A stretch of DNA of 29,262 bases from a virus. Position 1 is the first letter of the stretch; every line of letters starts with the position of its first letter. This document shows positions 10,123 to 26,189 of the stretch, piece by piece. Both the position numbers and the translations under genes were made by a program. The stretch is from IMG/VR virus record IMGVR_UViG_3300032053_008027, positions 1 through 29,262 of that record; one strand, written 5' to 3'. Below the pieces are notes generated by a model. It was not told the DNA's origin, ran no database searches, and worked only from the letters and a program-made list of their open reading frames with translations.

Positions 10123-10584
10123 ATTAAAAAACAAATAGATGCAGTACGAGATTTTCATGCTAAATTAGGATTTCCAATAAATCTTGATTTGGCAGCAGAA
10201 AAAACAGAAGAGACAACCAAATTCATATCATTGAGCGCAGTAATATTAGCTAGCATCGCAGAATCATTTGAATTATTGGCAGAAGGAAACGATACTAGAT
10301 TAATACGCGCGCATTTGATGATAGAAGAATTGTCAGAAGTACTATTAGCTTTGGCAAGAGGAAAAGATCTTCCTCTGTTAGACGGCCTCACTGATTTACT
10401 TTATGTAACAGTCGGTACCGCGGTAGCATACGATTTACCATTGACTGAAAGTTTTGATGAGGTGCAGCGTTCAAACATGACCAAAACACGCAGGATTGGA
10501 GATGTTAGATGCAGAGATAAAGGCGTCTCATATTCGCCGCCTGATCTTAAAACCATTCTAACAAACTATAAAAATTCTATGTAA
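10123..10584 (+). CDS. MazG-like nucleotide pyrophosphohydrolase
   Basis: 153 residues if started at ATT 10123. The conserved N-terminal part of the family (IDAVRDFHAKLGFPIN) is encoded between this point and TTG 10189, with no ATG, GTG or TTG before it. GAGG (10109-10112) lies ten bases before the ATT. Metal-binding EELSE and DGLTDLLYV are present, as is the closing FDEVQRSNMTK signature of phosphoribosyl-ATP-pyrophosphohydrolase-like phage MazG proteins. It would hydrolyse (d)NTPs to NMPs and pyrophosphate, removing unwanted nucleotides or feeding dCMP/dUMP to the enzymes encoded downstream. A start at TTG 10189 would remove the first helix. The frame joins that of the preceding gene across its TAA. 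Confidence 0.8.
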   Translation: MKKQIDAVRDFHAKLGFPINLDLAAEKTEETTKFISLSAVILASIAESFELLAEGNDTRLIRAHLMIEELSEVLLALARGKDLPLLDGLTDLLYVTVGTAVAYDLPLTESFDEVQRSNMTKTRRIGDVRCRDKGVSYSPPDLKTILTNYKNSM

Positions 10585-10595
10585 TAGGTGATAGT

Positions 10596-11720
10596 ATGAG
10601 AATAGGATTCTTCGGAGACGGATATTTGAATCTAGAAGAGAGGGGCAGAGACGGTTCTGTGGTTGATCGTCGAGGTTTCATGTCTGAACTTAACAAACTT
10701 GGACATGAGACCTTTTATTTAGTACGCGGTCGTACATCTACAGAATTCAATTGCATAGATGTATTCGATGAAATAAAGAATGTTGACATGTCCTTCGAAC
10801 GGTATAAACCAGAATGGGATTTAGTACTTAAATTTCCTAAGCTTGATATACTTATCGTAGAATCTCGCAATAGAATATTCGGTGCGTATGGTGGTGTATT
10901 TCTGCAGTATAAAATACTTAAGCACTACATGAATACTGATACCAGAATATGCATGTGGGATTTTGATATGAACAACTATCCCATAACATGCGATAAGTCT
11001 ATTTATACCGGTAAACCATATGGCGTAAATGATCCGCATTTCTTAGAAACATTGCATGCAAAGCGACATGAATTCATATACCTATTTCCGTACGAAGTGA
11101 CCAGCGAATTAAAGACTAAGTTCAATTATAGTAAAAACCTCCACACATTCCTATGGGCTATAAATGAAGATTTCTATAGCAAACTAGAATTACCAAACGT
11201 GAAGGATTTTGATCTTGTATATGGTGGTTCTGATTATAACAGACGAAAGAAATTTGAAGCGTTCTATGGAACACCCGCCAATAATGGATTTAAAGTTGGA
11301 ATGACTGGTGTATGGAATAAAAAGAAAGGCAGCAAAGAATTTGTATCACAATTTAAACTTGAATACTTTGGCTATCTTTCAATCATAGACACATTCAAGA
11401 ATATAAACAGAGGATTGGCAACTATACAGATATTGATGGATCACTACGTGAAGATTGGTTATGTTACACAAAGACAAATAGAAGGTCCATTTTCTAATGT
11501 GATAACATTCATAGACAAAGACATTAAGAACAGCGACAAGTATTTCATGAAAGAATTCTGCATAAGCAGCGATGAAGTTGATAATACGCTTAGAGAATTG
11601 CAAAGCATGACAATAGACGAATATATGGGCATAGCAAAAATGCAACAGAAATGGCTGCTGGACAATGGATTTGCTTGGAAAAATAGAGTAAAAGAATTTT
11701 TGACGATTATAGGAGCATGA
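10596..11720 (+). CDS. GT-B fold glycosyltransferase
   Basis: 374 residues. The N-terminal Rossmann-like half opens with MRIGFFGDGYLNLEERG and has LDILIVESRNR and CMWDFDMNN strands. The C-terminal half begins at FDLVYGGSDYNRRKKFEAFYG, followed by KVGMTGVWNKKKGSKEF and LEYFGYLSIIDTFKNINRGLATIQI, which is the usual place of the sugar-nucleotide-binding region. The general plan resembles phage DNA glucosyltransferases, which also have about 350-400 residues in two Rossmann halves, but I see no diagnostic motif that fixes the acceptor. Being in one operon with a dCMP-type TS-family enzyme, transfer of a sugar to hydroxymethylated cytosine is a reasonable hypothesis. Protein or glycan acceptors remain possible. 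Confidence 0.65.
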   Translation: MRIGFFGDGYLNLEERGRDGSVVDRRGFMSELNKLGHETFYLVRGRTSTEFNCIDVFDEIKNVDMSFERYKPEWDLVLKFPKLDILIVESRNRIFGAYGGVFLQYKILKHYMNTDTRICMWDFDMNNYPITCDKSIYTGKPYGVNDPHFLETLHAKRHEFIYLFPYEVTSELKTKFNYSKNLHTFLWAINEDFYSKLELPNVKDFDLVYGGSDYNRRKKFEAFYGTPANNGFKVGMTGVWNKKKGSKEFVSQFKLEYFGYLSIIDTFKNINRGLATIQILMDHYVKIGYVTQRQIEGPFSNVITFIDKDIKNSDKYFMKEFCISSDEVDNTLRELQSMTIDEYMGIAKMQQKWLLDNGFAWKNRVKEFLTIIGA

Positions 11721-11722
11721 AT

Positions 11723-11887
11723 ATGTGTTCAAATTATGCAGCAGACTTTGAAACTGCCACGCTTAAGTCTAATGTAGAACTACTAAGAAAGAATCATGGT
11801 AAGGATTTTGATACTCTATCTAATCGTGTTAGCAAAGTATTAGAACGACTTATGACATTAGAGCGGCATTTAGGGGGTAGAATATAA
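11723..11887 (+). CDS. Small helical protein, unknown function
   Basis: 54 residues from the ATG at 11723, chosen because AGGAG lies seven bases upstream; the ATG at 11717 is too close to that site. The sequence is charged and mostly helical (NVELLRKNHGKDFDTLSNRVSKVLERLMTLERHL), with heptad-like leucines that suggest a short coiled coil. No family is recognised. It directly follows the glycosyltransferase stop and could be a partner or regulator of a neighbouring enzyme. Confidence 0.6.
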   Translation: MCSNYAADFETATLKSNVELLRKNHGKDFDTLSNRVSKVLERLMTLERHLGGRI

Positions 11888-11946
11888 AGAAGATCCTAGA
11901 TACATCGAAATACCAGATACTGAAAAATAGTTAACCAAACCTAAAT

Positions 11947-12540
11947 ATGTTCAGAGTGGATATTAACTTCGCGGATGTTGGTTACCATTCATATGAGAAT
12001 CCGCATTGGGTTTTAATTGGTATGATTTGCATCAAATGTAAAAGATATGGCACATTTGTACGACCTAATATCATCGGCGATATTCTGCATATAGGTGCTA
12101 TGATAATCGGTCAAAATCCTGGGTATTATCCAAATGCTAAAAATCTTACTTATGTTACCATGGATGGTGAGGGCCATAGTTATACATGCGATCTAATTCA
12201 AGCATGCATAAAGGATTTTACTAATATCTATCTTACCAACGTGGTGAAGTGCGTAAATAGAGAAAAAATAAATAATGACAACATTATGGATTGTTCCGAG
12301 TTGTATCTAACAGTTGAGATGACATTCATTAAACCGAAAGTTATTATATGCTTAGGAAGAGTGGCATATGATACAGTTCTCGCAATTGTAGATGTATTTG
12401 ATTTGCATAACGAAGTGATACTTTTCGATCATCCTGGTTATTTACAACGAAATAATATTAGTGAACATGACCCTAAATATCTAGATTATGTTACGAATTT
12501 TCGTGAAGTACTAGAACATTATGAACAGAATGCTAAATAG
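11947..12540 (+). CDS. Uracil-DNA glycosylase superfamily protein (family 4-like)
   Basis: 197 residues. After an N-terminal CIKC pair come the superfamily motifs: GAMIIGQNPGYYPNA (motif A position), NVVKCVNREKINNDNIMDC (the 'NVVKC..C' block), KPKVIICLGRVAYDTV and the closing LFDHPGYLQRNN, in the place of the HPSYLLR loop. Cysteines at the N-terminus and in the NVVKC..C block could ligate an iron-sulphur cluster, as in family 4 enzymes. The active-site motif reads GQNPG rather than GEAPG, so substrate and activity are uncertain. It may remove uracil or a related base, or protect a modified genome. There is no clear ribosome binding site; an in-frame stop five codons upstream limits the start. 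Confidence 0.75.
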   Translation: MFRVDINFADVGYHSYENPHWVLIGMICIKCKRYGTFVRPNIIGDILHIGAMIIGQNPGYYPNAKNLTYVTMDGEGHSYTCDLIQACIKDFTNIYLTNVVKCVNREKINNDNIMDCSELYLTVEMTFIKPKVIICLGRVAYDTVLAIVDVFDLHNEVILFDHPGYLQRNNISEHDPKYLDYVTNFREVLEHYEQNAK

Positions 12541-12572
12541 AATAAAAGAATTTTTAATAATAGGAACATAAA

Positions 12573-13193
12573 ATGAAATACCGTGAAAATACCTACGATA
12601 TTAATATAATTAAGGAAGTTACGCGTGTATATAAAAATTTAGACATGACCAATAATTGCGTTCTTGATATTGGCGCAAATATTGGAGCTTTTACTTTATT
12701 TGCAATAGAAAAAGGCGCCTCAAGAGTTATTGGATTTGAACCAGAGCCGGATAATTTTGCATTATGTTATGAAAATTGTAAAATATTTACTAATACACAG
12801 ATTATAAACAAAGCTATAGTTTGCAATGATGATTTAACGCGCCAATTTTTCTTAAATAAAGGAATAAATAAAGGTGCACATTCATTATATGTCCACAGAG
12901 GTAGAGATATAATAACAATAAATTGTATAAAATTTGAAACAGTATTAAATCAATATCAACCAAAAATTATTAAGATGGATATAGAAGGTGGAGAATATGA
13001 ATTATTACCTCAATACATATTACCAAATTATGTCATGCAACTTGCAGTTGAATATCATTTTGGAAAAAAACACTGGAAAGAATTAGCAAAAAGTATACAT
13101 ATGTCATTAATAAATCAGCATTTTATTGCTGATATAGTTCCAAAGTTTGATGGAAAACATTGGACAACATTGGGATTATATAAACGCAATTAA
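12573..13193 (+). CDS. FkbM-family SAM-dependent methyltransferase
   Basis: 206 residues. SAM-binding motif LDIGANIGAFTLFA (31-44), then VIGFEPEPDNFALCYENC, a LNKGINKGAHSLY strand, and the family signature KMDIEGGEYELLPQ. Length and motif order fit FkbM-type O-methyltransferases, which usually act on sugars or small molecules. This gene and the next are visibly poorer in G+C than their neighbours, so they may be a recent acquisition. It sits 14 bases before a radical SAM gene, which suggests joint action on one substrate; the substrate cannot be read from sequence. Confidence 0.88.
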   Translation: MKYRENTYDINIIKEVTRVYKNLDMTNNCVLDIGANIGAFTLFAIEKGASRVIGFEPEPDNFALCYENCKIFTNTQIINKAIVCNDDLTRQFFLNKGINKGAHSLYVHRGRDIITINCIKFETVLNQYQPKIIKMDIEGGEYELLPQYILPNYVMQLAVEYHFGKKHWKELAKSIHMSLINQHFIADIVPKFDGKHWTTLGLYKRN

Positions 13194-13207
13194 ACAAGGA
13201 TAATAGC

Positions 13208-14290
13208 ATGAATAGAATGATAAATAGAAATACACCTACTGTTATTGAAATAGATACTGTAGATGGTTATTGTACGCGCAATTGCACAGTTTGTCCTATA
13301 TCACAAATACGCACAAAAAATTATATGACTATTGATTTGTTTAAAGAAATTTTACTAGACTTGAATAAATGGAAAGAAATCAAAGCAAAACGCATAAAAT
13401 TTGATTTGACACCTTTTGGAGAATTTTTTTTACATCCACATTGGCATGAATTATTAGAATTAACATCTAAATATATGATAGATTTTAAGACATATTTACA
13501 TACTAATGCTGATAAATTATGTATAAAAGATATAGATTATGTGATGACACATATAAATACTTTGATTATTGATGTATATGAACCAAAAAATGATATAACA
13601 ACAGACATTTTTACATTATCACAGCAGCTTAAAAATACCAACATTAATATTTGGCAAGTATTAGATAATGCTCAATGTATAAATATACAAACTTCTAAAA
13701 TACTTAAAGGAAATGTATATTCTAATCTTATTACACATAACAAAAAGAATATCGTTTTTTTAAATAATCAAAAAATTTATAATAATAAAAATAGTATTCA
13801 TCAACTTAAAAATTGGAGTATTTTTGATAAAAATTTATTTGGAAAATTTACTGATATTTCGTGTTCTTCTCCAATGCGACAATTAGTATTAAATTCATAT
13901 GGTAATATGATATTATGTTGTGTTGATATTCTTCAGCAATATATTTTTGGAAATATTAATTTAAAAAATAACGCAACAAATGAATCATATTATAAAAATG
14001 AATATCTTAACAATAGATATTTAAACGAAATTAGAGCTTTGTTGCGTGTAGGATTAAATGGAAAGAAAAGATCATTATTACCATTATGTAGAAATTGTAC
14101 AGATAAAACCGGTGCTAAACGAATAGGCATAGAAAAAATAGATACAAACAATTCTGACTATGCTGCCATAGGTAGATATTTTGAAAATATAAGACCTGCT
14201 CTTAGCCCAGTATTGACACTAGATATGGATACTATTCATAAGAAACAGGAAAAAATAAGGAGCTATAAGGAGACTCAGGATGCTAAGTAA
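13208..14290 (+). CDS. Radical SAM protein with SPASM-like C-terminal cysteines
   Basis: 360 residues; AAGGA seven bases before the ATG. The radical SAM cluster motif C22-TRN-C26-TV-C29 (CxxxCxxC) directly follows the first strand, and a TIM-barrel-like order continues (KFDLTPFGEFFLHPHW, YLHTNADKL, LIIDVYEPK). The C-terminus has C219, the pair C237-C238 in GNMILCCVD and C294-RN-C297, arranged like a SPASM/twitch region that binds auxiliary iron-sulphur clusters. Such proteins modify peptides, sugars or other small substrates by radical chemistry. Codon use is strongly A/T-ending, as in the preceding gene and unlike the flanks. The substrate is unknown; the last 11 bases overlap the next gene. 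Confidence 0.85.
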   Translation: MNRMINRNTPTVIEIDTVDGYCTRNCTVCPISQIRTKNYMTIDLFKEILLDLNKWKEIKAKRIKFDLTPFGEFFLHPHWHELLELTSKYMIDFKTYLHTNADKLCIKDIDYVMTHINTLIIDVYEPKNDITTDIFTLSQQLKNTNINIWQVLDNAQCINIQTSKILKGNVYSNLITHNKKNIVFLNNQKIYNNKNSIHQLKNWSIFDKNLFGKFTDISCSSPMRQLVLNSYGNMILCCVDILQQYIFGNINLKNNATNESYYKNEYLNNRYLNEIRALLRVGLNGKKRSLLPLCRNCTDKTGAKRIGIEKIDTNNSDYAAIGRYFENIRPALSPVLTLDMDTIHKKQEKIRSYKETQDAK

Positions 14291-14594
14291 AGATACGTTT
14301 AAGTCGGTGATGGAACGAATAGAAATGCAGTATGATAAAGAGCAAAAATTCTGCGAGAGTTTAGATAGAATAGTAGATGGACATTTTATTTGTACTCTAA
14401 CAAATGATTTGCATGCTGCATGCATACAAATATTAACAGAAGCTATGGATGATGAGCTGCATGAATGGATAGACTATTATATCCATGAAACCGACTTCGG
14501 CAAGGACAATTTGGAATGCACCCTAAACGGAAAGAAAATAACATTACGAACTGTGGATGATCTATATAAATTACTCACCAAAAAGAGGAAATAA
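14280..14594 (+). CDS. Small acidic phage protein, unknown function
   Basis: 104 residues, starting inside the end of the radical SAM gene (11-base overlap) after an AAGGAG site. The recognisable feature is a C-terminal MDDELHEWIDYYIHETDFGKD block followed by a short beta region and TVDDLYKLL. This is a pattern found in many small uncharacterised phage proteins of about 100 residues. No catalytic residues are apparent. The composition returns to that of the rest of the phage. Confidence 0.7.
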   Translation: MLSKDTFKSVMERIEMQYDKEQKFCESLDRIVDGHFICTLTNDLHAACIQILTEAMDDELHEWIDYYIHETDFGKDNLECTLNGKKITLRTVDDLYKLLTKKRK

Positions 14595-14596
14595 TT

Positions 14597-14827
14597 ATGA
14601 CTAATATGGAAATAAAATACACATCTGAATATCTAAGAACATTAACATTTCAACAACTTGCAGAATTGGAAAAAGAAACTCGCGCTGTTATACTCGAAAT
14701 GAATACGCAGGCAGCACAAGAAGGTCATGGTAGAATTCGCAACACTAAAGCGCCGCATGTATATAATACATGTCGTAAGCTAATCGCAAGAATTCAAACC
14801 GCAGTAAACGAAAAACGTTTAAACTAG
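14597..14827 (+). CDS. Ribosomal protein uL29-like protein
   Basis: 76 residues, AGGA seven bases before the ATG. The sequence follows the plan of bacterial uL29: a first helix EYLRTLTFQQLAELEKE, a turn with RIRNT, and a second helix CRKLIARIQTAVNEKRL that matches the family's 'RRxIARIxTxxxEr' signature closely. It is slightly longer than cellular uL29 (about 65 residues), with some six extra residues between the helices. If real, it could replace or compete with the host protein next to the ribosome exit tunnel. The protein is short and helical, so chance likeness to a coiled coil cannot be excluded. Confidence 0.5.
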   Translation: MTNMEIKYTSEYLRTLTFQQLAELEKETRAVILEMNTQAAQEGHGRIRNTKAPHVYNTCRKLIARIQTAVNEKRLN

Positions 14828-14837
14828 CGGAGATAGA

Positions 14838-14981
14838 ATGGCACAAAAAAACAAAACTAACTCGACTGAATGGAATAGAATAAAAAAAGAACTTCAAACT
14901 CAATTTACTAAGATGGGATTAAAGTCCTATTTTGTAGACAGGAAATTTATAGGTAGCATAAAGAGAAAGAAAAACAAATGA
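14838..14981 (+). CDS. Small basic protein, unknown function
   Basis: 47 residues, too short for many gene callers. CGGAGA precedes the ATG by a few bases, and the stop overlaps the dCMP deaminase start (ATGA), which supports translation. The protein is rich in Lys and Arg (pI clearly basic), with a predicted helix TEWNRIKKELQTQFTKMG and a Lys-rich end. No family is recognised; nucleic-acid binding is possible. Confidence 0.55.
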   Translation: MAQKNKTNSTEWNRIKKELQTQFTKMGLKSYFVDRKFIGSIKRKKNK

Positions 14982-15436
14982 CAAGTTTCAATCAGGTACC
15001 TAAAAGACGTGCAACATTCATGAAAGTAGCCCATGTCATAGCAGATCTTAGTAGTTGTATATCTCGTTGTGTTGGGGCTGTCTTGGTGCGCGACGGTATG
15101 ATAATAAGTACTGGCTATAATGGTACACCAAAAGGTGTTAGAAACTGCAGCGAGGGAGGCTGTTCGAGATGTAGCGATGCTACAATAGCGAGTGGAGAAC
15201 AGCTAGACAAATGTTTGTGCTTACATGCAGAAACAAACGCTGTTATTCAAGCCGCATACAATGGAATATCAACACAAGGTGCTGTATTATATTGCACAGT
15301 AAAGCCATGTCTAGGATGCGTCAAGATATTAATAAACGCCGGTGTTCGCAAGGTATTTTACGAGCAAGAATATAATGTTGAATATCCTAAACATCTAATA
15401 GAAAATATTATAATCTGCAAACTAGAGGACGTATAA
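14978..15436 (+). CDS. Deoxycytidylate (dCMP) deaminase
   Basis: 152 residues. Zinc-binding and catalytic motifs of the family are complete: H83-A-E85 in CLHAETNAVIQ, and P110-C111-LG-C114. The N-terminal CVGAVLVRDGMIISTGYNGTPKG strand-loop and the Cys-rich insert ending in the HAE region are those of ComEB/T4-Cd-type dCMP deaminases, some of which bind a second zinc. It converts dCMP to dUMP, the substrate for thymidylate synthase. The four-base overlap with the preceding small gene and one-base overlap with the TS-family gene downstream show tight co-expression in a nucleotide-metabolism unit. Confidence 0.95.
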   Translation: MTSFNQVPKRRATFMKVAHVIADLSSCISRCVGAVLVRDGMIISTGYNGTPKGVRNCSEGGCSRCSDATIASGEQLDKCLCLHAETNAVIQAAYNGISTQGAVLYCTVKPCLGCVKILINAGVRKVFYEQEYNVEYPKHLIENIIICKLEDV

Positions 15437-16266
15437 TGTCACACTTCATAGTTAGAAATGCTGATCATGCTTTGTATGTATTGGCATGCATGTTAAATGG
15501 CGCATCAGAACAGGCTCCTAGAGGATTTAAAGTAAAAGAGCAGTTAAATTGTAGCGTTGATATAACCTGTCCAGCTAGATGTATTATTACAAATCCAGCC
15601 AGAAAATTGAAAATGAAATATACTGCAGCAGAATTGCTGTGGTATTTAAGCGGTGATTTGACAGCGGAATCAATAGGACAGTTCGCTAAGATGTGGTTGA
15701 ATATAGCAGACGATTCAGGGCTAATAAATTCAAATTATGGATATATCATATTCTTTCAAAAATTAGAAAACTGCTGTGGAAGCCAATTCAATTGGGTTAT
15801 AGAATCGCTGATAAAAGATAAATCATCGAGACAAGCTCTCATTAATTTCAACCAACCTAAGCACAAATATGCAGAAAATAAAGATTTTCCTTGTACTATA
15901 GCAGTTCAATTTTTTATACGAGATGATGTACTGCACATGACAGTATACATGAGAAGCCAGGATCTTATCCGAGGATTTTGTTACGATGTTATCTTCTTTA
16001 GTTTTCTGCAACAGTTAATGTTGGCAAAATTGCAAGAAACATATCCTAATTTAATACTAGGATCTTATGTAAATTACATGTCAAATATTCATGTGTATGA
16101 ACCTCATTACGCCATGTTGGATGAGATTATTCGTTCATACAACGCAACGGTAATATCAGATAGATTGCAATATGTAAATATACAGATCTTAGACGACATA
16201 AAAAATAAAACACAACTAAGCGATTTTTCTAAGTATTATACAATTATCAGAGATGCAGCCAAATAA
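15436..16266 (+). CDS. Thymidylate-synthase-family enzyme, probably dCMP-specific (hydroxymethylase-like)
   Basis: 276 residues with the TS fold landmarks: ELLWYLSG (E66), the KSSRQALINFNQP phosphate-binding Arg, nucleophile C153 in DFPCTIAVQF, RSQDLIRGF (171-181) and HVY (219-221) for the sugar. The key position that is Asn in thymidylate synthases (GLPFNIA) is Asp here (GFCYDVI, D184). In this family that Asn recognises uracil, and Asp marks dCMP-using enzymes such as T4 dCMP hydroxymethylase. So 5-hydroxymethyl-dCMP (or a methylated dCMP) is the likely product, using methylene-tetrahydrofolate. It is one base into the deaminase stop, and its own stop overlaps the polymerase start. Plain TS activity is the alternative. 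Confidence 0.8.
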   Translation: MSHFIVRNADHALYVLACMLNGASEQAPRGFKVKEQLNCSVDITCPARCIITNPARKLKMKYTAAELLWYLSGDLTAESIGQFAKMWLNIADDSGLINSNYGYIIFFQKLENCCGSQFNWVIESLIKDKSSRQALINFNQPKHKYAENKDFPCTIAVQFFIRDDVLHMTVYMRSQDLIRGFCYDVIFFSFLQQLMLAKLQETYPNLILGSYVNYMSNIHVYEPHYAMLDEIIRSYNATVISDRLQYVNIQILDDIKNKTQLSDFSKYYTIIRDAAK

Positions 16267-18644
16267 TGCCGCTTCCGTTTGGACAAAACAAACTTGGTAT
16301 AGTTTTCATAAAAGAGATGCCGTCTGCTGCTGAGCAGCAAAATGGTAAATTCTTTTCAGATAGAGTAGGTGTAGAATACATTCAGCGTTTAACGCGTCAT
16401 ATTAGTGGTTTTAATTTTGAACGCGATTGCTATGTCACATCTATATTATTAGAAAGACCAGCTAACGGGAAATTCAAACTAAATAAAGAAACAAAAACGC
16501 GTGTAGCATTTCTAGAACAGGAACTTCTAAAATTAAAACCGAGTATAATATTTGGATGCGGTTCATACGCCATAAAACTTGCTTTGCCTGGTTGCCCTCC
16601 TAAGGTGTCAGATTTCAAAATGCATGGTCGTGCAATACCATCGCTACATTACGGTTGTATGACTGGATGTCTGTTGGGAGACGCCGAATCCTATAATTAT
16701 ATTTCTGTATGTTTGCAAGATATGGATAAAGTATTGTATGCATATATGAATCCTGATGAACGAATAACCTCATTTGATTTTGATAACGGAAACCATCTAA
16801 TAAGCACAGAAGTAGAATTTGATAATCTATGCGAAAAGTTGCAAAAGGAAAATAAACCGATATGCTTTGACTTTGAAACTTCAGGTTTAAATCCATATAG
16901 CAAAGATGCTAAAATATATTCTGTAGCAATAACAAACACAAGAAAAGAAGGCTGGATGCTGCCTTTAGATTATAAAAATTTCTGGACACCGCCGTCGTTG
17001 GCATATGTAACAGAAAAACTTAAAGGTTTGCTAATAGGAAATCTGCCTAAAATTATACAGAACGCGGAATTTGAAAGCATATGGTCTAGACAAATATTAG
17101 GCGTAACGGTAAATAACATATTATACGATACGATGGTAGGTTATCATGTTATAGATGAACGCAATGAGATATGCAAACTGGACTTTCAAGAATTCGAATT
17201 GTTTGGAAAAAGCCACAAAACAAAATTTGATGTTAAGCATATATTAGATTCTGATATTACTAGCTTATGTAAATATAATGTGCTAGATGCGCGCGTAACA
17301 TATCTTATTTATGAATTAAGAAATGAATTCATCGAAAAAAACAAATGGCCAAAAAAACCTACCGCGTTTTTCATGGATGCCTTACAAATGCTGATAAGAA
17401 TGAAATTATCAGGCATCAAAATAGATAAAAAAGAATTAGATAAGCAGCTAGATAATTCCAATAAAATGATAGAAACGCTTACTGCAGAATTGTATGATAG
17501 TGATGTTGCTAAACAATTTAAAATTGAAAATACTAGGGATTTATCATTAGGATCTACAAAGGATCTTAGACAACTATTTTATAAACAGCTAAAAATAACT
17601 CCCACAAAATTAACATCAAGTGAGATAGCATCAGTAGATGCAGAAACGTTGGAATCGTTTGGAATAAACGAATCTATTACTGGTGAAGCAAAACCATTTA
17701 TTGAAAAATTATTGCTGCTGCGGCAATATACAAAACTTACTAACACTTATCTATTACCATACAGTAAATCGCTGGAATTTGATGGCAAGATACATCCAAC
17801 ATGCGCATTGCATACTACTCGTACATATAGATCCAGTTACTTTAATCCTAATCTTCAGAATATTCCATCAGTAAAAGCAGCAGGATTAGGAAAGGATGTG
17901 CGAAAAGTATTTGTTCCATCATTAGATTGGTTTTTAGATTTTGACTGTTCAGCAGCGGAAGTTCGTGTGCTTGCTATGTATAGCAAAGATGAACGACTTA
18001 CCAAAGAAGCCGTAAACAATATGGATATTCATAGGTATTGGGCATCTCGCGTATATCAAAAACGAGAACAGGAAGTAACCAGTAGCGAACGTAGCAATGT
18101 AAAAAGTAATTTTGTATTTGCTTTGATTTATGGTGGATCATCAACGACATCGGCGAAAACACTTAAGCTTGATTTGAAGCATATACAAGAAGTAGAAAAG
18201 GAATTGTGGGCTGCATATCCTGGAGTTTTACGCTGGATGCAAAGCTGGACAGGATATTGGGATGAAAAACGGAAAAAGCGAGTGTACGGAAAATACAATA
18301 AGCTTTTATATGTAGAACATATGGCAGGATTTAGACGGCATGGACCACTTAAGAGTAGGCACATAATCAACACGCCGATCCAGGGTTCATCATTTCATCT
18401 ACTACTTAATGGTATTATGTCTTCTGATGCTGAGATGATTGCTAATAATATGAAATCGTATCCTGTTTTGCAGGTTCATGACGAAGGACTTTTCGATTGT
18501 GTGGAAAACGAAATGGAACAGGTTATAGATATCGTTACAAGAAATTTAAGATTTAGTAAACGATTCGAAAATTTCATGGGTAAAATACCTATGGAAATAG
18601 AGTGGTCATACGGAAAAAATTACGGTGAGCTTACTAAAATTTAA
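16266..18644 (+). CDS. DNA polymerase, family A, with N-terminal UDG-like domain
   Basis: 792 residues. Residues 1-150 resemble a UDG-superfamily domain: GIVFIKEMPSAAEQQNGKFFSDRVG (motif A), DCYVTSILLERP, KPSIIFGCGSYA and PSLHYGCM. The 3'-5' exonuclease follows, with D202/E204 (DFETSGL), N266-AEFE and Y337..D341. The family A polymerase has TTRTYRSS..NPNLQNIP, motif A D560, motif B R609..K613..YGG and motif C H738-D-E740. No 5'-3' exonuclease is present, as is usual for phage replicative enzymes. The UDG-like domain keeps the fold motifs, but the GEAPG-type site reads KEMPS, so it may only sense or bind bases. It replicates the genome with the SSB, helicase and primase encoded in the window. 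The start overlaps the TS-family stop (TAATG). Confidence 0.92.
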   Translation: MPLPFGQNKLGIVFIKEMPSAAEQQNGKFFSDRVGVEYIQRLTRHISGFNFERDCYVTSILLERPANGKFKLNKETKTRVAFLEQELLKLKPSIIFGCGSYAIKLALPGCPPKVSDFKMHGRAIPSLHYGCMTGCLLGDAESYNYISVCLQDMDKVLYAYMNPDERITSFDFDNGNHLISTEVEFDNLCEKLQKENKPICFDFETSGLNPYSKDAKIYSVAITNTRKEGWMLPLDYKNFWTPPSLAYVTEKLKGLLIGNLPKIIQNAEFESIWSRQILGVTVNNILYDTMVGYHVIDERNEICKLDFQEFELFGKSHKTKFDVKHILDSDITSLCKYNVLDARVTYLIYELRNEFIEKNKWPKKPTAFFMDALQMLIRMKLSGIKIDKKELDKQLDNSNKMIETLTAELYDSDVAKQFKIENTRDLSLGSTKDLRQLFYKQLKITPTKLTSSEIASVDAETLESFGINESITGEAKPFIEKLLLLRQYTKLTNTYLLPYSKSLEFDGKIHPTCALHTTRTYRSSYFNPNLQNIPSVKAAGLGKDVRKVFVPSLDWFLDFDCSAAEVRVLAMYSKDERLTKEAVNNMDIHRYWASRVYQKREQEVTSSERSNVKSNFVFALIYGGSSTTSAKTLKLDLKHIQEVEKELWAAYPGVLRWMQSWTGYWDEKRKKRVYGKYNKLLYVEHMAGFRRHGPLKSRHIINTPIQGSSFHLLLNGIMSSDAEMIANNMKSYPVLQVHDEGLFDCVENEMEQVIDIVTRNLRFSKRFENFMGKIPMEIEWSYGKNYGELTKI

Positions 18645-18690
18645 TATTTATAAGAACATATAAAACACCCATTGGAGTATATTATATTAT

Positions 18691-18855
18691 ATGATCGAAT
18701 ACATTTTAAAAATACTGATTCTGTTTATCATCGTTCTGCTATTACTTCCTATTTGTACTAAACTTGTCGTAAGTAGTTTTTACGATGTACGCCAATATTA
18801 TTGCAAAAAATTTAATTTAGATTTGAAAAAATCGAAACTCAAGGAGAAACAGTAA
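18691..18855 (+). CDS. Small single-pass membrane protein
   Basis: 54 residues. An N-terminal hydrophobic segment (ILKILILFIIVLLLLPICTKLVV, about residues 5-27) is followed by a basic, soluble C-terminal half ending in KKSKLKEKQ, so the C-terminus is probably cytoplasmic. The stop overlaps the SSB start (TAATG), and GGAG lies 13 bases before the ATG. No family is recognised. It might anchor replication to the membrane or act on the host envelope, but nothing specific is seen. Confidence 0.6.
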   Translation: MIEYILKILILFIIVLLLLPICTKLVVSSFYDVRQYYCKKFNLDLKKSKLKEKQ

Positions 18856-19790
18856 TGGACGATAGACTAGCCGCAATAAGACAAGAAAAATTGGATTCAT
18901 CTCGTAAATTTTATGGGCATTCTTTTATTAATGTTGATATGCTATCAGATTTGAAAATATCTGAATATAAACCAGTAGAAGGCGATAATTTCATTGCCAT
19001 AGTACCTCCTAAAAATACCAAGACATACATAGGCAAAAAGCTATTTACACATGGCAATATTGGAGTTAACAATAGCGCGTATCTGTGTAATAATGTGATG
19101 TTCGGCGAACGCTGTCCAATATGTGATGAATTCCAAAAGCTTGCAAAAGAAGAGACAGCATGGGACGATATGAAAAATTTCAAGTGGGGCGTCAGATATA
19201 TGTTCTTAGTGATAGACATGCATGACGATACCACAGTCGCAAAAGGATTGCAGTTGTACGTGGCACCGAAAACTGTTAATGATGAATTGCTTACACTTTC
19301 CGAAGATCGTCGTACTGGAGCCTATATTGATATTGCAGATCCAATAACAGGAAAGACTGTAATGTTCAAACGCACAGGAATGAAGAAAGAAAATACAAAA
19401 TATTCAGGCTTTAGCTTGGAAGATAGAGAATTAATTCCTGCCGCGATATTAGAAGCTGTTCCAGATTGGGATATACTTCTCAATAAGGCTGATTATGATG
19501 AAGTTTATAAAGATTTCTATGGATCAAAAGCTCCTGCAGCTGAAATAGAAAAACCTCAAGCAGAAAGACCTAAAACAGAACAACCAGAAAAAGAACAGCC
19601 AGAAAAAGAAGCTAGTGCTACTCCAGTACGCAAACCGCGCCAGCCTAGAGGAGAAGCGACCATAGTAGCTCCACGGCAGTCAGAACCAGCAGGACCTGCG
19701 CCAGCGCAAGCAGGAGAAATGGCAGCTCCTGGTAGATTTTCGTCATTACGAGATAGATTGAGTGCTGCGAAATTACAAACGAAGGAGTAA
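18855..19790 (+). CDS. Single-stranded DNA-binding protein, T4 gp32-like
   Basis: 311 residues; AAGGAG is a few bases before the ATG. The core has H66, C78, C87 and C90 (GERCPICDEF), a spacing almost the same as the zinc ligands of T4 gp32 (H64, C77, C87, C90). The region after it (WGVRYMFLVIDM..LQLYVAPKTVNDEL) is consistent with the OB-fold strands. After residue 225 there is a Pro/Glu/Lys-rich low-complexity linker (EKPQAERPKTEQPEKEQPEK) in place of the long acidic gp32 tail, then a short GRFSSLRDRLSAAKL end that may contact partners. It coats ssDNA in replication and recombination; RecA-like and polymerase genes flank it. Confidence 0.85.
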   Translation: MDDRLAAIRQEKLDSSRKFYGHSFINVDMLSDLKISEYKPVEGDNFIAIVPPKNTKTYIGKKLFTHGNIGVNNSAYLCNNVMFGERCPICDEFQKLAKEETAWDDMKNFKWGVRYMFLVIDMHDDTTVAKGLQLYVAPKTVNDELLTLSEDRRTGAYIDIADPITGKTVMFKRTGMKKENTKYSGFSLEDRELIPAAILEAVPDWDILLNKADYDEVYKDFYGSKAPAAEIEKPQAERPKTEQPEKEQPEKEASATPVRKPRQPRGEATIVAPRQSEPAGPAPAQAGEMAAPGRFSSLRDRLSAAKLQTKE

Positions 19791-19792
19791 TC

Positions 19793-20323
19793 ATGGCTCA
19801 AGTAAATGAAGAAGAAATCTTAGATTTTGTAAAACGGATAAGAACCAGCATTTCTATTGATAAGTATGATCTGTCAAAAGAATGCCAAAAACAGCCTGAT
19901 CTTTATTGCGATGTTGGTGATATGTTTGTAAGAGTAAAAACAGCAGCCAAAATAGCGAAAGAAGAACTTGAATTGGAACGTGCTAGATTGGATGCAGATA
20001 TTAGAATGAGTCCAGAAAAATATGGACTTGCTAAACTTACAGAAGGATGCATATCATCTACAATAATATCGCAGACATCTTTTACAAAAGCAAAGCAGCT
20101 ATGCATCGCAGCAGAAGAATTATCAGATATGCTTCAAATATTGTTGGCTTCTATTGAGCAACGAAAATCAATGCTCAGAGATCTTGTAAGTCTGTACATT
20201 TATGATTACTATTCAAATGATAATATGGGTAGTGAAAAGGGCAAACTGCGCGAAACCGCCGAGGAAAAGATAGCAAAATTAAGAGAAGAACGAGCACTAG
20301 GAAACAAAGCAGACCAGGCATAA
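19793..20323 (+). CDS. Helical protein linked to the SSB/recombination genes, unknown function
   Basis: 176 residues, beginning two bases after the SSB stop with a GAAGGAG site. It is predicted almost entirely helical, with coiled-coil-like stretches (AAKIAKEELELERARLDADI and EKIAKLREERALG). No catalytic or metal motif. A similarly sized helical gene often lies beside the ssDNA-binding gene in large phages, so a role as SSB partner or recombination mediator is plausible but unproven. Confidence 0.7.
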   Translation: MAQVNEEEILDFVKRIRTSISIDKYDLSKECQKQPDLYCDVGDMFVRVKTAAKIAKEELELERARLDADIRMSPEKYGLAKLTEGCISSTIISQTSFTKAKQLCIAAEELSDMLQILLASIEQRKSMLRDLVSLYIYDYYSNDNMGSEKGKLRETAEEKIAKLREERALGNKADQA

Positions 20324-20325
20324 CT

Positions 20326-20502
20326 ATGTGGCATGATGGAATTTGTAAAATCTGTAGATCATTGATCGAAGAAGATATTAATAAGGATAAGTTTATTGTT
20401 ACAGATTATCGTAATAGATGCTCGAATGCAAAATGTGTACACCATACGTGGCATTATGTTAATAGCACTGAAGAGTTAGATTATTATAAGCACAATAGGT
20501 AA
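20326..20502 (+). CDS. Small zinc-finger-like protein
   Basis: 58 residues, two bases after the preceding stop. Cys/His residues are spaced as possible zinc ligands: CKIC near the start, then C32, C37 and H39-H40 (RCSNAKCVHHTW). Several Trp and Tyr residues follow. No family is recognised. The tight spacing and full-length reading frame support a real gene of the recombination operon. Confidence 0.55.
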   Translation: MWHDGICKICRSLIEEDINKDKFIVTDYRNRCSNAKCVHHTWHYVNSTEELDYYKHNR

Positions 20503-20519
20503 CTAACAAAGAGATAAAC

Positions 20520-21530
20520 ATGGCAAGAAAAATAACAGAAGAAATCAAAGGCGCAATAAACGAAAATGGTGTTAAAGATCTTAGTCCAGTAGATGAATGG
20601 ATATCTACAGGCTGCACGTTAATGGATTTAGCAATTACAGGAAAACTGCCGGGCGGCTTTCCAGTAGGAAGAATCAGTCATATATTTGGCGCTGAATCAA
20701 CATGCAAGACAGTTATAGGCACTACAATATTGGGTGCAGCGCAACGAAATGGAGCGATAGCATTCTTTGCCGATGTAGAACAGACGTTTGATCATGACTG
20801 GGCAACACTGTTTGGACTTAATTGCAGCAATAAGGATAATTTTAGACTCGGACATCCTCGTACTATAGAAGAATTTTTCGATAGCTATCTGAAAGATATC
20901 ATAGAATTGAAAGATGATCGCCAGAGGGTAGTGGTTGTTGACAGTTTATCTGCCATGCCTGCTAATGCCGAAATAGAAGGAGAATTGGAAAAGGGTTCAT
21001 TTGGTACAATGCGTGCTAAGCAAATGTCTATAGCATTAAGAAAATATATAAGACCACTGAGTGACACCAAGACTTCGGTTATCTTTATAGATCAATCTAG
21101 AATGAATATCGGTCTTGCATATGGTCCTAAAGAAACATATTCAGGCGGCATGGCGCTTAAATTTTATGCCTCTACTAGAATACATCTTAAGCATGGTACG
21201 AAAGAAAAGAATAAAAAAGACGTCGAAATTGGAACGTGGATAAACTTCTTGGTTGATAAGAGTAAAGTAAGCGCTCCGCATCGTGGCAGCGAATTCTGCA
21301 TTCTTTATGATTATGGAATAGACAATATACACTCCAATCTATTATTCTTGCAAGAAGCGCAAAAAGAAGATCGCACAGTTTCGTTTAACGGAACTAGCGG
21401 ATTTATGTCCAAAATGATAAAATATGTAGAAGAGAATAATCTAGAAGAAAAGCTCGACGCTGAAGTAGAAAAAGCTTGGTTGGAACTGTATAAAGCAGAT
21501 GATACTAGAAAACAAAGGGTTTGGAAGTGA
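20520..21530 (+). CDS. RecA/UvsX-like recombinase
   Basis: 336 residues. The RecA core is clear: ISTGCTLMDLAITG, a P-loop GAESTCKT (57-64), AFFADVEQTFD with the catalytic Glu, VVVDSLSAMPANAEIEGE (Walker B and L1), VIFIDQSRMNIG, and an L2-region SGGMALKFYASTRIHL. It should form filaments on ssDNA for strand exchange and recombination-dependent replication. The P-loop has Cys where nearly all RecA proteins have Gly (GPESSGKT). The Lys and Thr needed for nucleotide binding are kept. Its last four bases overlap the Rad50-like gene (GTGA). Confidence 0.92.
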   Translation: MARKITEEIKGAINENGVKDLSPVDEWISTGCTLMDLAITGKLPGGFPVGRISHIFGAESTCKTVIGTTILGAAQRNGAIAFFADVEQTFDHDWATLFGLNCSNKDNFRLGHPRTIEEFFDSYLKDIIELKDDRQRVVVVDSLSAMPANAEIEGELEKGSFGTMRAKQMSIALRKYIRPLSDTKTSVIFIDQSRMNIGLAYGPKETYSGGMALKFYASTRIHLKHGTKEKNKKDVEIGTWINFLVDKSKVSAPHRGSEFCILYDYGIDNIHSNLLFLQEAQKEDRTVSFNGTSGFMSKMIKYVEENNLEEKLDAEVEKAWLELYKADDTRKQRVWK

Positions 21531-22621
21531 TTCGCAATATAGTACTCGAAAATTTTCAATCGCATAAAGATACAACACTTAAATTCTCACCTAAAATAAC
21601 TGTCATAACAGGAAGCAGCAATTCAGGAAAAACTGCGGTATTGCGAGCGTTAAATTGGGTAGTAAATAATAGACCTCTAGGTGACAGTTTTATAAGACGC
21701 GGAACTTCTAATGCCGAAGTTTCTATAGAAGTATCAAACGGAGAAGACGGCGCAATAATAGCCCGCAAACGAGACAAAAAAGAAAACTGCTATACTGTAA
21801 CAACCGGTGATACTGGATTTAAATTTGAAGCTCTTAAAAGTGATATTCCAAAAGAGATAACGGATCTCATTAATTTTTCTGATATTAATATTCAAAAACA
21901 ATTATCGCCATACTTCTTGGTGTTAGAATCTCCTGGACATGTTGCACAGTACATACGAAATGTATCTAAACTTGAAAACATAGATATATTAGTATCATCA
22001 GCATCAAGTCATATCAAAATATTTAAGGGCAAATTAGACGAGTCGTTCGAGTCGCTAAATAATTTTCGTATATTATTGGCAGAGGCTGAAAAGATAAACA
22101 TACAAGTGTTTGAAATAATGCTAACAGCATATAAGAAATTTGTTACTGCGCAGGATAAACTAACAGACGATATTAAACAGCTCACCAATATAATTTGCTC
22201 GTTGGATGATACGGCACGAAAATTAAAAGCTATACCAGACAATGTGGCATTTTTAATAACATCCTGTGAATCTACATGCGAAGTATTAAATACAATACAA
22301 ACAAGAAAATCTCAGCTTGCTACATTAGTACGACAGATAGCCGATATCGAAGCGCAGTATGAAAAAATACCGCAAGATATTGATACATTATATAAGACGT
22401 GCGAAAATACTATTACGCAATATGAACAGATATATTCCAAGAAATTGGCGCTTGCGTCAGCCATAAAAAATATAACAGATGCACATAATAATATAGAAAC
22501 TTACAATATACAATATGTCACAGTAGAAGATGAAATACAACGCATAAAAACGCAGCTAGTACAATGTCCTACTTGCGGTCAAAACTTGACACCAGAAGCG
22601 AGAGATAGGATGTTAGAATAA
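21527..22621 (+). CDS. Rad50/SbcC-like ATPase, N-terminal half
   Basis: 364 residues from GTG at 21527 (AGGG seven bases upstream); a TTG two codons earlier is possible. The opening IVLENFQSHKDTTLKF and P-loop GSSNSGKT are those of SMC/Rad50 heads. A long helical arm follows, and the protein ends in CPTCGQNLT, a zinc-hook CxxC. A complete Rad50 would go on with the return arm and second half of the head; here it stops shortly after the hook. The missing Walker B half is encoded separately at 23790-24410. Together with Mre11 it would process DNA ends and prime recombination, as T4 gp46/gp47 do. Confidence 0.85.
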   Translation: MIRNIVLENFQSHKDTTLKFSPKITVITGSSNSGKTAVLRALNWVVNNRPLGDSFIRRGTSNAEVSIEVSNGEDGAIIARKRDKKENCYTVTTGDTGFKFEALKSDIPKEITDLINFSDINIQKQLSPYFLVLESPGHVAQYIRNVSKLENIDILVSSASSHIKIFKGKLDESFESLNNFRILLAEAEKINIQVFEIMLTAYKKFVTAQDKLTDDIKQLTNIICSLDDTARKLKAIPDNVAFLITSCESTCEVLNTIQTRKSQLATLVRQIADIEAQYEKIPQDIDTLYKTCENTITQYEQIYSKKLALASAIKNITDAHNNIETYNIQYVTVEDEIQRIKTQLVQCPTCGQNLTPEARDRMLE

Positions 22622-22622
22622 T

Positions 22623-23570
22623 ATGAAACTGCTTATACTCGGTGACGGACACATTACTAATACAAATCCTGTTGGTAGAACCGACAACTATTTTTCTACC
22701 GTGAAGGATAAGTTAGCTAATGTTGCTGAAATATACCACCATGAAGGCTGTGATGCATTAATTGAAACAGGAGATCTTGTTGATTCTCCACATGTAAGTT
22801 ATGAAGTAATTTCGCTACTCATAGATATCGTAAGAAATCATGGATTGAAAGTCTTCGGTGTTGTTGGTCAGCATGATATTTTTGGACATTCACTAAACAC
22901 CATCAAGCGCAGTCCAATGAGTGTGCTGCAGTCGTCGAATACTGTGACATTATTGGGTGCTGAAGGTACCCAGATATATATGCAAATAAGAGCGTACGGA
23001 GCATCATTCGGAGAACCTATTCCAGTTCCCACTGGTTCTGATTCTTTTAGCATATTAGTTATTCATAAAATGATAGGTGATAGACAACTTTATCCAGGTC
23101 AGGAATTAGAAGAGCCTAGAGCGTTCTTACGACAGAATGCTGCATATGATTTAATTATATGTGGAGATTATCACTATAGATTTATAGATTCAATTGGTGG
23201 AAGATTTATAGTAAATCCTGGTGCTATGTTGCGAAAGACTCGTTCAGAATGGGATTTAAAACATGAACCTGCCGTTATTATATTCGACACCATCACACGA
23301 ACATGCAAAACAGTGTTATTGAATTTCAAACCTGTTGAAACGGTATTTGATTTAACAGAAACAAAAAAGCATGACAATGAAGCCTTAATGCGATTTGTGG
23401 CTGCGTTAAAAGCCAATACAAATGTGCAGATAGATTGGAAAGAAGTACTACTAAAAGTAGCAACAGAAAGACATGCTTCGGATGCTGTAAAATTAGCTAT
23501 AGACCATTGTATGGAAGAAACGCAATTAGAAAAGTCTTTGCCTAAAGTAGGAGAAATATCGTGGACCTAG
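22623..23570 (+). CDS. Mre11/SbcD-like nuclease (metallophosphoesterase)
   Basis: 315 residues. Calcineurin-like phosphoesterase motifs are in order: GDGH (D8, H10), GDLVD (D51..D54), GQHD (81-85), IHKM (H148), and GDYHYR (D182, H184) before GGRFIVNPGA. In classical Mre11 these read DxH, GDxxD, GNHD, and GHxH, so the third has Gln for Asn and the last has Asp for the first His. Activity may be retained with altered metal binding. The gene lies between the two Rad50 halves and is the expected partner (T4 gp47-like). Its stop overlaps the next gene's GTG start. Confidence 0.87.
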   Translation: MKLLILGDGHITNTNPVGRTDNYFSTVKDKLANVAEIYHHEGCDALIETGDLVDSPHVSYEVISLLIDIVRNHGLKVFGVVGQHDIFGHSLNTIKRSPMSVLQSSNTVTLLGAEGTQIYMQIRAYGASFGEPIPVPTGSDSFSILVIHKMIGDRQLYPGQELEEPRAFLRQNAAYDLIICGDYHYRFIDSIGGRFIVNPGAMLRKTRSEWDLKHEPAVIIFDTITRTCKTVLLNFKPVETVFDLTETKKHDNEALMRFVAALKANTNVQIDWKEVLLKVATERHASDAVKLAIDHCMEETQLEKSLPKVGEISWT

Positions 23571-24718: not shown

Positions 24719-25526
24719 TCCTGGTTTGGTGGCGTTAGATTTAGAATCTGGCGCTATTATAAAGTGGGGCTACTTGACAGCACTAAAGAAATTCATGCTT
24801 GAAACTTCAAATACCTCTATACATGTATGCGAATATAGAGACATGAAAAAATCAAAGGATGAAGAAACTAGTCCAGATCTATTTTCCATCAAGAAGAAAG
24901 CATTTCTAGTAGATTTTGTAGGAAAAGTAATAGATTCGCTATTATTTCATGCTCCATTAGTACCTGCTAAAATACAAGAGCAAGATGATCTGATAATAAA
25001 ATATTTAGGCGGAAAACCAAACGAATATTTAGCGGTAGCAATGGAAGGTTACGCATATGGAGCATCGAATTCAAGCTGCGTATTCGATTTGGCAGAAATA
25101 GGTGGATATATAAAACTACAATTATGGAAACGCGGTATTCCGCTAAGAATGTATGATCCATTAAGCGTGAAACTGTGGGCCACAAATCATGGTCATGCTA
25201 AAAAGTTTGAAATGGTAAACGCAGCAAGAGAACTGGGATTTGATATACCCGAAGATTTATTCGCATCAGGTTCAAAGATGAAAGTTCCAATGTATGATGG
25301 AGAAACATTAAGAGAAAAGGATTTAACAGGACCTGGTACAGATGTTGCAGATGCCTTTCATATAGCATCAATGCTGCGTACAGAAATACTAGTACGAAAT
25401 GGAGTAATTAAATTAGAAGATCTTACAGAAAAACAGCGGCGCGTATTTTTACGCACAACTACACATAGTCCAATAAATTTGCTGGCGCAGAATTTTATAA
25501 TCAATGAGGAAACTACAAAATGCTAA
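24672..25526 (+). CDS. RuvC-like Holliday junction resolvase (RNase H fold)
   Basis: 284 residues. The four acidic residues of the RuvC-like fold are placed as expected: D11 in GIDLSINSPG, E125 in VAMEGYAYGASNS, and D224/D227 in GTDVADAFHIA. The segment IGGYIKLQLWKRGIPL is the usual helix and strand between them. An insert at 40-115 makes it longer than bacterial RuvC (about 170 residues), as in resolvase-like proteins of large phages. It should cut branched DNA before packaging, in line with the recombination genes upstream and terminase downstream. Confidence 0.8.
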   Translation: MQNIKKCLGIDLSINSPGLVALDLESGAIIKWGYLTALKKFMLETSNTSIHVCEYRDMKKSKDEETSPDLFSIKKKAFLVDFVGKVIDSLLFHAPLVPAKIQEQDDLIIKYLGGKPNEYLAVAMEGYAYGASNSSCVFDLAEIGGYIKLQLWKRGIPLRMYDPLSVKLWATNHGHAKKFEMVNAARELGFDIPEDLFASGSKMKVPMYDGETLREKDLTGPGTDVADAFHIASMLRTEILVRNGVIKLEDLTEKQRRVFLRTTTHSPINLLAQNFIINEETTKC

Positions 25527-25810
25527 TACTTACTAGAAATGCCGGTGAATCTATAGATTTTAAATCTAATGTAAAAGAACTAAAATTATACGTATCTACA
25601 ATAGCAAATAGAAAAGCAAAACTAGAGATAGTAAATGAAATTAACTTTCTATTTTCTGTTATCGGTGGAAAAGATACCACTATATTTTTAGGCGGTATAG
25701 GAGATGTTAAAATAGTCATCATCAATGTTACTAATAATTCAGTGTGTTTAGGAATTGAAGCACCTAAGAATGTTAATATAAAAAGAACAGAAATCATCAA
25801 TAAAAGGTAA
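25520..25810 (+). CDS. CsrA-like RNA-binding regulator with internal duplication
   Basis: 96 residues, against about 60 for CsrA. The start MLILTRNAGES is the CsrA first strand with Leu4 and Arg6. The end GDVKIVIINVTNNSVCLGIEAPKNVNIKRTEI gives the usual strands, the 'GI.APK.V' block and R89/I92 at the RNA-binding positions. Between them lie about 45 extra residues (KELKLYVSTIANRKAKLEIVNE..) that look like a second, degenerate copy of the strand 2-3 hairpin. CsrA dimers bind GGA in mRNA leaders and repress or stabilise host transcripts, so a phage version could reprogram host carbon flux or phage mRNAs. It overlaps the RuvC-like stop by seven bases. Confidence 0.75.
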   Translation: MLILTRNAGESIDFKSNVKELKLYVSTIANRKAKLEIVNEINFLFSVIGGKDTTIFLGGIGDVKIVIINVTNNSVCLGIEAPKNVNIKRTEIINKR

Positions 25811-25814
25811 ACTA

Positions 25815-26189
25815 ATGTTTAAACAACCAGATAATCTCACTCCATTCCATGATCCTAGTACAAAAGAGCTTATATGGAAATATAGACCGCTGAATGATTT
25901 TGCTTTTATATTTCCAATACTTAAAGAGACCATCAAGAAAAAATCAATAATAGAAATACCTGAACATTTAAAAAAATCAGTGTTGAGTGACTATGGCATA
26001 GTCTTAGCAATAGGTCCTGGTTGGTATGATAAAAGAAACAAATTTCATTCTACAGATATGATAAAACCAGGTATGAAGGTGCTGTATGATAAGACAGTTC
26101 CTTGGGATATAAAAATTAAAGGTCTAGATGGAACAACATACAGAATCATGATGTGCACGTACAAAGACATAAAAGGAATAGTCGATTGA
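25815..26189 (+). CDS. GroES/gp31-like co-chaperonin
   Basis: 124 residues. After about 22 extra N-terminal residues the GroES plan is clear: RPLNDFAFIFPI (core strand), a mobile-loop-like KKKSIIEIPEHLKK, then GIVLAIGPGWYDKRNKFHSTDMIKPGMKVLYDKTVPWDIKIKG and the final YRIMMCTYKDIKGIV. All landmarks (VLAxGPG, DxxKPGxxVLY, KIxG..Y) match. It would cap host GroEL to fold large phage proteins such as the capsid, as T4 gp31 does. It stands next to terminase genes, at the start of the morphogenesis region. Confidence 0.85.
   Translation: MFKQPDNLTPFHDPSTKELIWKYRPLNDFAFIFPILKETIKKKSIIEIPEHLKKSVLSDYGIVLAIGPGWYDKRNKFHSTDMIKPGMKVLYDKTVPWDIKIKGLDGTTYRIMMCTYKDIKGIVD

Follow-up and report, generated by a model that had tools for sequence, protein, structure and literature searches.

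The gene content of virus record IMGVR_UViG_3300032053_008027 from IMG/VR predicts a phage that probably makes glycosylated 5-hydroxymethylcytosine DNA by a logic like that of phage T4. The window analysed here is the whole record (29,262 nucleotides, positions 1 to 29,262; possibly a fragment), and the prediction concerns a run of genes for nucleotide metabolism, glycosyl transfer and replication. An earlier note on this DNA had proposed a cytosine hypermodification module, of which the hydroxymethylase, the precursor enzymes and a glycosyltransferase (GT) of the DNA-GT superfamily hold up, whereas a role in it for a uracil-DNA glycosylase (UDG) and a fusion of UDG to DNA polymerase A (PolA) is not supported. 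As the note had listed them, the GT-B, UDG-superfamily, FkbM, radical S-adenosylmethionine (SAM)/SPASM, deoxycytidine monophosphate (dCMP) deaminase, thymidylate synthase (TS)-family and UDG–PolA genes were all confirmed by domain or profile evidence. The genes, in order, are:

10123–10584, + strand: PRA-PH family (all-alpha) nucleotide pyrophosphohydrolase, a predicted dCTPase-like precursor enzyme (PF01503, PHROG 671)
10596–11720, + strand: GT-B glycosyltransferase, a divergent member of the T4 β-GT superfamily with predicted hydroxymethylcytosine-DNA glycosylation activity (profiles, fold)
11947–12540, + strand: family-4-like [4Fe-4S] UDG (PF03167, cysteines)
12573–13193, + strand: FkbM-family SAM methyltransferase, possibly acting in sugar O-methylation (PF05050, TIGR01444)
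13208–14290, + strand: radical SAM protein with a C-terminal SPASM/twitch-like cysteine domain (PF13186, motif)
14978–15436, + strand: dCMP deaminase (PF00383, PHROG 174)
15436–16266, + strand: cytosine-type pyrimidine hydroxymethylase of the TS family, with C153-T154 and D184 (PDB relatives, residues)
16266–18644, + strand: UDG-like domain, 3′–5′ exonuclease and DNA polymerase A in one replicative polymerase (PF03167, PF01612, PF00476)

Each of these reading frames is open, in this order and on the + strand. The note had offered the shared strand as evidence, an unspecific argument that carries no weight because, from 9622 onwards, the main open reading frames (ORFs) of the window are + without exception. 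The tightest unit is formed by the dCMP deaminase, TS-family and PolA genes, whose start and stop codons overlap; 11 bases separate the PRA-PH and GT genes.

The TS-family protein (PF00303, E = 4.2e-23) is a cytosine-type pyrimidine hydroxymethylase by sequence, with hydroxymethyl-dCMP as its predicted product. Its closest solved relatives are the CMP 5-hydroxymethylase MilA (1.3e-23) and the T4 dCMP hydroxymethylase gp42 (3.4e-19), and E. coli TS ranks after these hydroxymethylases (about 1e-6). Conserved residues of the TS family are retained (catalytic C153, E66, R173 and D176), and the dCMP-type Asp reported by the earlier note is indeed present: D184 occupies E. coli TS position 177 and stands alongside C153-T154, with T154, a non-His residue, at position 147, as in T4 gp42 and MilA. 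The combination of Cys-Thr and Asp is common to the enzymes of T4 (gp42), VPE25, Xp15, MW202657, MW202621, PW916 and LR756500, whereas Cys-Asn and Asn stand at these places in one SPO1-type enzyme and in the Montesquieu enzyme, two proteins assigned to the uracil type from their annotation or context. In a FastTree phylogeny the window hydroxymethylase groups with the LR756500 enzyme (support 0.82). The PW916 protein (UIS73818.1, L135:2944-3762) is annotated as a deoxyuridylate hydroxymethyltransferase, yet carries the cytosine-type Cys-Thr and Asp.

The enzymes encoded around the hydroxymethylase match a gene set known from modified phage DNA. In the MetaGPA study, those two TS positions best separate TS genes of cytosine-modified contigs from others, and TS co-occurs on such contigs with PF01503, PF00383 and PF14437 (PMC8670742). 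The window carries all three partners, and its PRA-PH, dCMP deaminase and TS-family proteins are the set that MetaGPA ties experimentally to cytosine-modified phage DNA. The protein that the earlier note called MazG-like is a pyrophosphohydrolase of the PRA-PH family (PF01503, 3.7e-12; PHROG 671, 1.5e-18); the MazG label falls away, as the MazG model scores under its cutoff. Among phages, it is best matched by a protein of MW202657 whose gene precedes that of a cytosine-type hydroxymethylase by the length of two genes. In the window, the PRA-PH frame lacks ATG, GTG and TTG codons ahead of 10189 (residue 23), and by sequence its likely start is the ATT at 10123, preceded by GAGGG. The dCMP deaminase matches PF00383 (8.8e-22) and PHROG 174 (8.1e-41) and has the zinc motifs HAE and PCLGC.

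The GT (374 amino acids) is invisible to single-sequence searches. Queried singly, it gave zero matches in Pfam, NCBIfam, the PDB and 50,697 phage records; direct searches of viral contigs, phages, plasmids or genomes returned no relatives, and a GT motif pattern run on viral contigs had no match. Against the ORFs of a set of hydroxymethylase loci, by contrast, it does have matches, and every one of the best five (7e-5 to 6e-3) is a GT encoded close to a hydroxymethylase. We built profiles from GTs adjoining cytosine-type hydroxymethylases, with the window GT excluded, and these recover it at 7.7e-25 (nine GTs), 7.6e-18 (four non-T4-type GTs) and 8.6e-8 (four T4-type GTs), compared with 0.02 for the best reversed decoy. 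In the other direction, a profile of five window-type GTs (A4) finds T4 β-GT as its top PDB match at 1.2e-8. A further profile (A3) matches T4 β-GT at 4e-45 and includes T4-type rows, so the fair tests are A4 and the window-free profiles. Pairwise BLASTP between the GT and β-GTs is weak or not significant, and the superfamily link therefore rests on the profiles. The predicted model has a GT-B fold and places T4 β-GT at rank 2 in a PDB structure search, among other GT-B enzymes, a fold support that is moderate because the mean predicted local distance difference test score is 66.6. Neither R216 nor E296 varies among the aligned GTs, and T4 D100 is the counterpart of D124 in the alignment. As the Pfam T4-Gluco-transf family (PF09198) is not matched, the protein is a superfamily relative outside that family. 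A T4-type member of the superfamily matches 119 of the 50,697 phage records, and the matches listed are T4-like and VPE25-type Enterococcus phages. Together, the profiles and the model support a very divergent member of the T4 β-GT superfamily of phage DNA glycosyltransferases, with DNA as its predicted target.

The survey behind these comparisons comprised 126 hydroxymethylase loci, including ones from phage records. A degenerate hydroxymethylase pattern found at least 120 viral stretches; the pattern itself requires Cys-Thr and Asp, so loci found with it are no evidence for those residues. Searches with the window proteins detected a dCMP deaminase in 69 of the 126 loci and a PRA-PH protein in 27. 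Of 103 distinct locus clusters, 11 contain a GT-family member that shares the strand of the hydroxymethylase at a distance of 0–3 kb. Other decoration genes near such hydroxymethylases encode a carbamoyltransferase (Xp15) and T4-type β-GTs (VPE25 and the 462-kb phage LR756500). Two loci (L088:1-4267 and L036:3-4646) share a row of genes for a cytosine-type hydroxymethylase, a UDP-galactopyranose mutase (PF03275, 1e-76), a GT of the window family, a P-loop protein and an epimerase, from which a phage with galactofuranosyl-hydroxymethylcytosine is predicted.

Set beside known systems, the window most resembles the T4 pathway of gp42, dCTPase, dCMP deaminase and β-GT: it has a cytosine-type hydroxymethylase, a dCMP deaminase, a pyrophosphohydrolase and a GT-B enzyme from the β-GT superfamily. 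It differs from T4 in having PRA-PH in place of the dCTPase and PolA in place of a B-family polymerase, in its very divergent GT, in the additional FkbM and radical SAM genes and in the lack of a recognised kinase. Enterococcus phages VPE25 and VFW likewise combine a related hydroxymethylase (35% identity) with a GT from that superfamily, but their stretch has no listed FkbM or radical SAM gene. VPE25 DNA resists bisulfite conversion (PMC4999554), and we count a phage with a related hydroxymethylase, a T4-type β-GT and such DNA in favour of glycosylated hydroxymethylcytosine in the window phage. The cytosine-modified contigs of MetaGPA have TS with Asp177 and the same PRA-PH and dCMP deaminase partners, and in Xp15 the hydroxymethylase adjoins a deaminase; these contigs and Xp15 decorate the base by carbamoylation, however, and no carbamoyltransferase was recognised in the window. 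The uncultured siphophage ctIqW946 (MW202657) shares PRA-PH, a cytosine-type hydroxymethylase, dCMP deaminase, PolA and the closest phage FkbM, but its polymerase has no detectable similarity to that of the window, and neither a GT of the window's family nor a radical SAM protein was recognised in it.

In the proposed pathway, the PRA-PH enzyme would convert dCTP to dCMP, onto which the TS-family enzyme would place a hydroxymethyl group, while dCMP deaminase would divert part of the dCMP to dUMP for thymidylate. Kinase steps would then yield hydroxymethyl-dCTP, which PolA would incorporate, and a sugar would be attached to the base within DNA by the GT-B enzyme. Substrates, the identity of the sugar and the completeness of cytosine replacement are points that we infer from protein family and context. 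Hydroxymethylcytosine and its glycosylation are well supported because the hydroxymethylase, the precursor-gene set and the GT profile evidence are all present. Such a core has precedents; what is new is the divergent GT, which the profiles connect with the DNA-GT superfamily, and a possible pair of tailoring genes.

That pair, the FkbM and radical SAM genes, lies inside the cluster. FkbM is a complete SAM methyltransferase (PF05050, 1.5e-15, 58 bits versus a cutoff of 22.7; TIGR01444, 1.6e-20, 74 versus 37.7) with the SAM motifs DIGANIG and KMDIEGGE. Relatives occur in hydroxymethylase loci of three lineages besides that of the window (L004, L125/L079 and L065). The closest phage relative, in MW202657, immediately follows PolA in a cluster that also encodes PRA-PH, a hydroxymethylase and a deaminase; FkbM is also present in phages with no hydroxymethylase within the stretches viewed. 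In the L125:1806-8614 and L079:7596-14377 cluster, FkbM adjoins a gene with an HMUDK helical domain and is accompanied by genes for a hydroxymethylase, a dCMP deaminase, an inositol-1-phosphate synthase-like protein and a C5-cytosine methylase. At L065:1752-9793, FkbM lies some 5 kb from a hydroxymethylase that has a TET-associated glycosyltransferase (PF20691) and a C5-cytosine methylase as neighbours. The radical SAM protein matches PF13186 (1.8e-6, 28.6 bits versus a cutoff of 21.5), scores below the cutoff of the radical SAM Pfam model and has CTRNCTVC (CxxxCxxC) at residue 22 and C-terminal cysteines C219, C237/C238, C294 and C297. We found no homologue of it in the searched viral contigs, phages, plasmids or genomes, and no relative in the hydroxymethylase loci. 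Its sole solved relative is BtrN (1e-6), which likewise combines a radical SAM core with a C-terminal cysteine domain, at low similarity. BtrN works in antibiotic biosynthesis, where it oxidises a cyclitol alcohol.

The base composition of the two genes sets them apart. GC content is 28% for FkbM and 25% for the radical SAM gene (17% and 16% at third positions; window 12573-14290), below every other gene measured except a CsrA-like one (27%), and the low GC makes it probable that the pair was acquired later. Another record contributes a contig (L002:1-8382) that matches window 14306-22687 at 99.94% identity. Because this contig starts 16 bases past the radical SAM gene, it is uninformative on the low-GC pair in that strain.

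We give roughly an even chance to the pair being cargo unrelated to DNA, carried beside a T4-like module and acting, for example, on a surface glycan or some other target in the host. Such a role fits the distinct composition of the two genes, the FkbM genes of phages with no nearby hydroxymethylase and the hydroxymethylase loci that have no radical SAM relative, but sits less well with the placement of the pair within the modification gene run and the recurrence of FkbM next to base-modification genes. The same placement, with FkbM recurring in hydroxymethylase loci (behind PolA in MW202657, in L125/L079 and in L065) and a radical SAM protein that resembles a cyclitol-alcohol oxidiser, would be accounted for by a radical-tailored cytosine hypermodification, in which FkbM O-methylates the sugar on hydroxymethylcytosine and the BtrN-like enzyme oxidises or rearranges it. 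We consider this unlikely, as the low-GC pair is probably recent, FkbM also occurs in phages whose viewed stretches show no hydroxymethylase, and no collection searched contained a relative of the radical SAM protein. For FkbM, context lends modest support to a possible part in sugar modification; for the radical SAM protein, such a part is possible from its position. In some phages, thymidine hypermodification pathways have been assigned radical SAM enzymes; searches of open-licence papers showed none described for cytosine.

Several observations weigh against glycosylated hydroxymethylcytosine itself. No nucleotide-sugar enzyme or deoxynucleoside monophosphate kinase was recognised in the 29-kb record, in which not every ORF was scanned; the GT is just 16–25% identical to its family; and its model resembles many GT-B enzymes, including ones that do not act on DNA. 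According to work cited in PMC8670742, exchanging one Asn for Asp can make a dCMP methylase out of TS, so an Asp at this position is compatible with methylation as well as with hydroxymethylation. A TS-family protein that works as a dCMP methylase (yielding 5-methylcytosine DNA) or as a divergent dTMP synthase, together with a GT whose target is not DNA, is nonetheless improbable, still more so than sugar tailoring by the pair: true hydroxymethylases are closer to the enzyme than TS is, the GT clusters with those adjoining cytosine-type hydroxymethylases, and the listed matches of the T4-type GT fall in T4-like and VPE25-type phages.

Linking the GT to the superfamily of T4-type DNA glycosyltransferases suggests that a GT beside a cytosine-type hydroxymethylase is a simple handle for finding further such enzymes. 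Which of the restriction, CRISPR and base-excision defences are effective against a phage depends in part on its DNA sugars, and known DNA base chemistry would gain in breadth should FkbM and the radical SAM protein prove to modify the sugar.

The two UDG-containing proteins, which the earlier note had counted among the hypermodification parts, look like repair and replication components. The standalone UDG matches PF03167 (9.4e-14) and has the iron–sulfur cysteines C28, C31, C102 and C116 and the TNVVKC motif as in family 4; the GEAPG motif of that family reads GQNPG and the protein scores under NCBIfam cutoffs, so we file it as family-4-like only. A search of the hydroxymethylase loci gave no match to it. 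We considered a modified-base glycosylase like Brig1, which has Glu where the S. tokodaii UDG has Asn (PMC11078745), and rejected it: the window UDG keeps the TN motif, which makes uracil the likelier substrate, and the protein is probably a uracil repair enzyme outside the modification pathway. The 792-residue polymerase joins UDG (PF03167), 3′–5′ exonuclease (PF01612) and PolA (PF00476) domains in one protein, a fusion layout known from other phages. Farther downstream, the low-GC CsrA-like gene is followed by a Cpn10 (GroES)-like gene (window 25520-26189).

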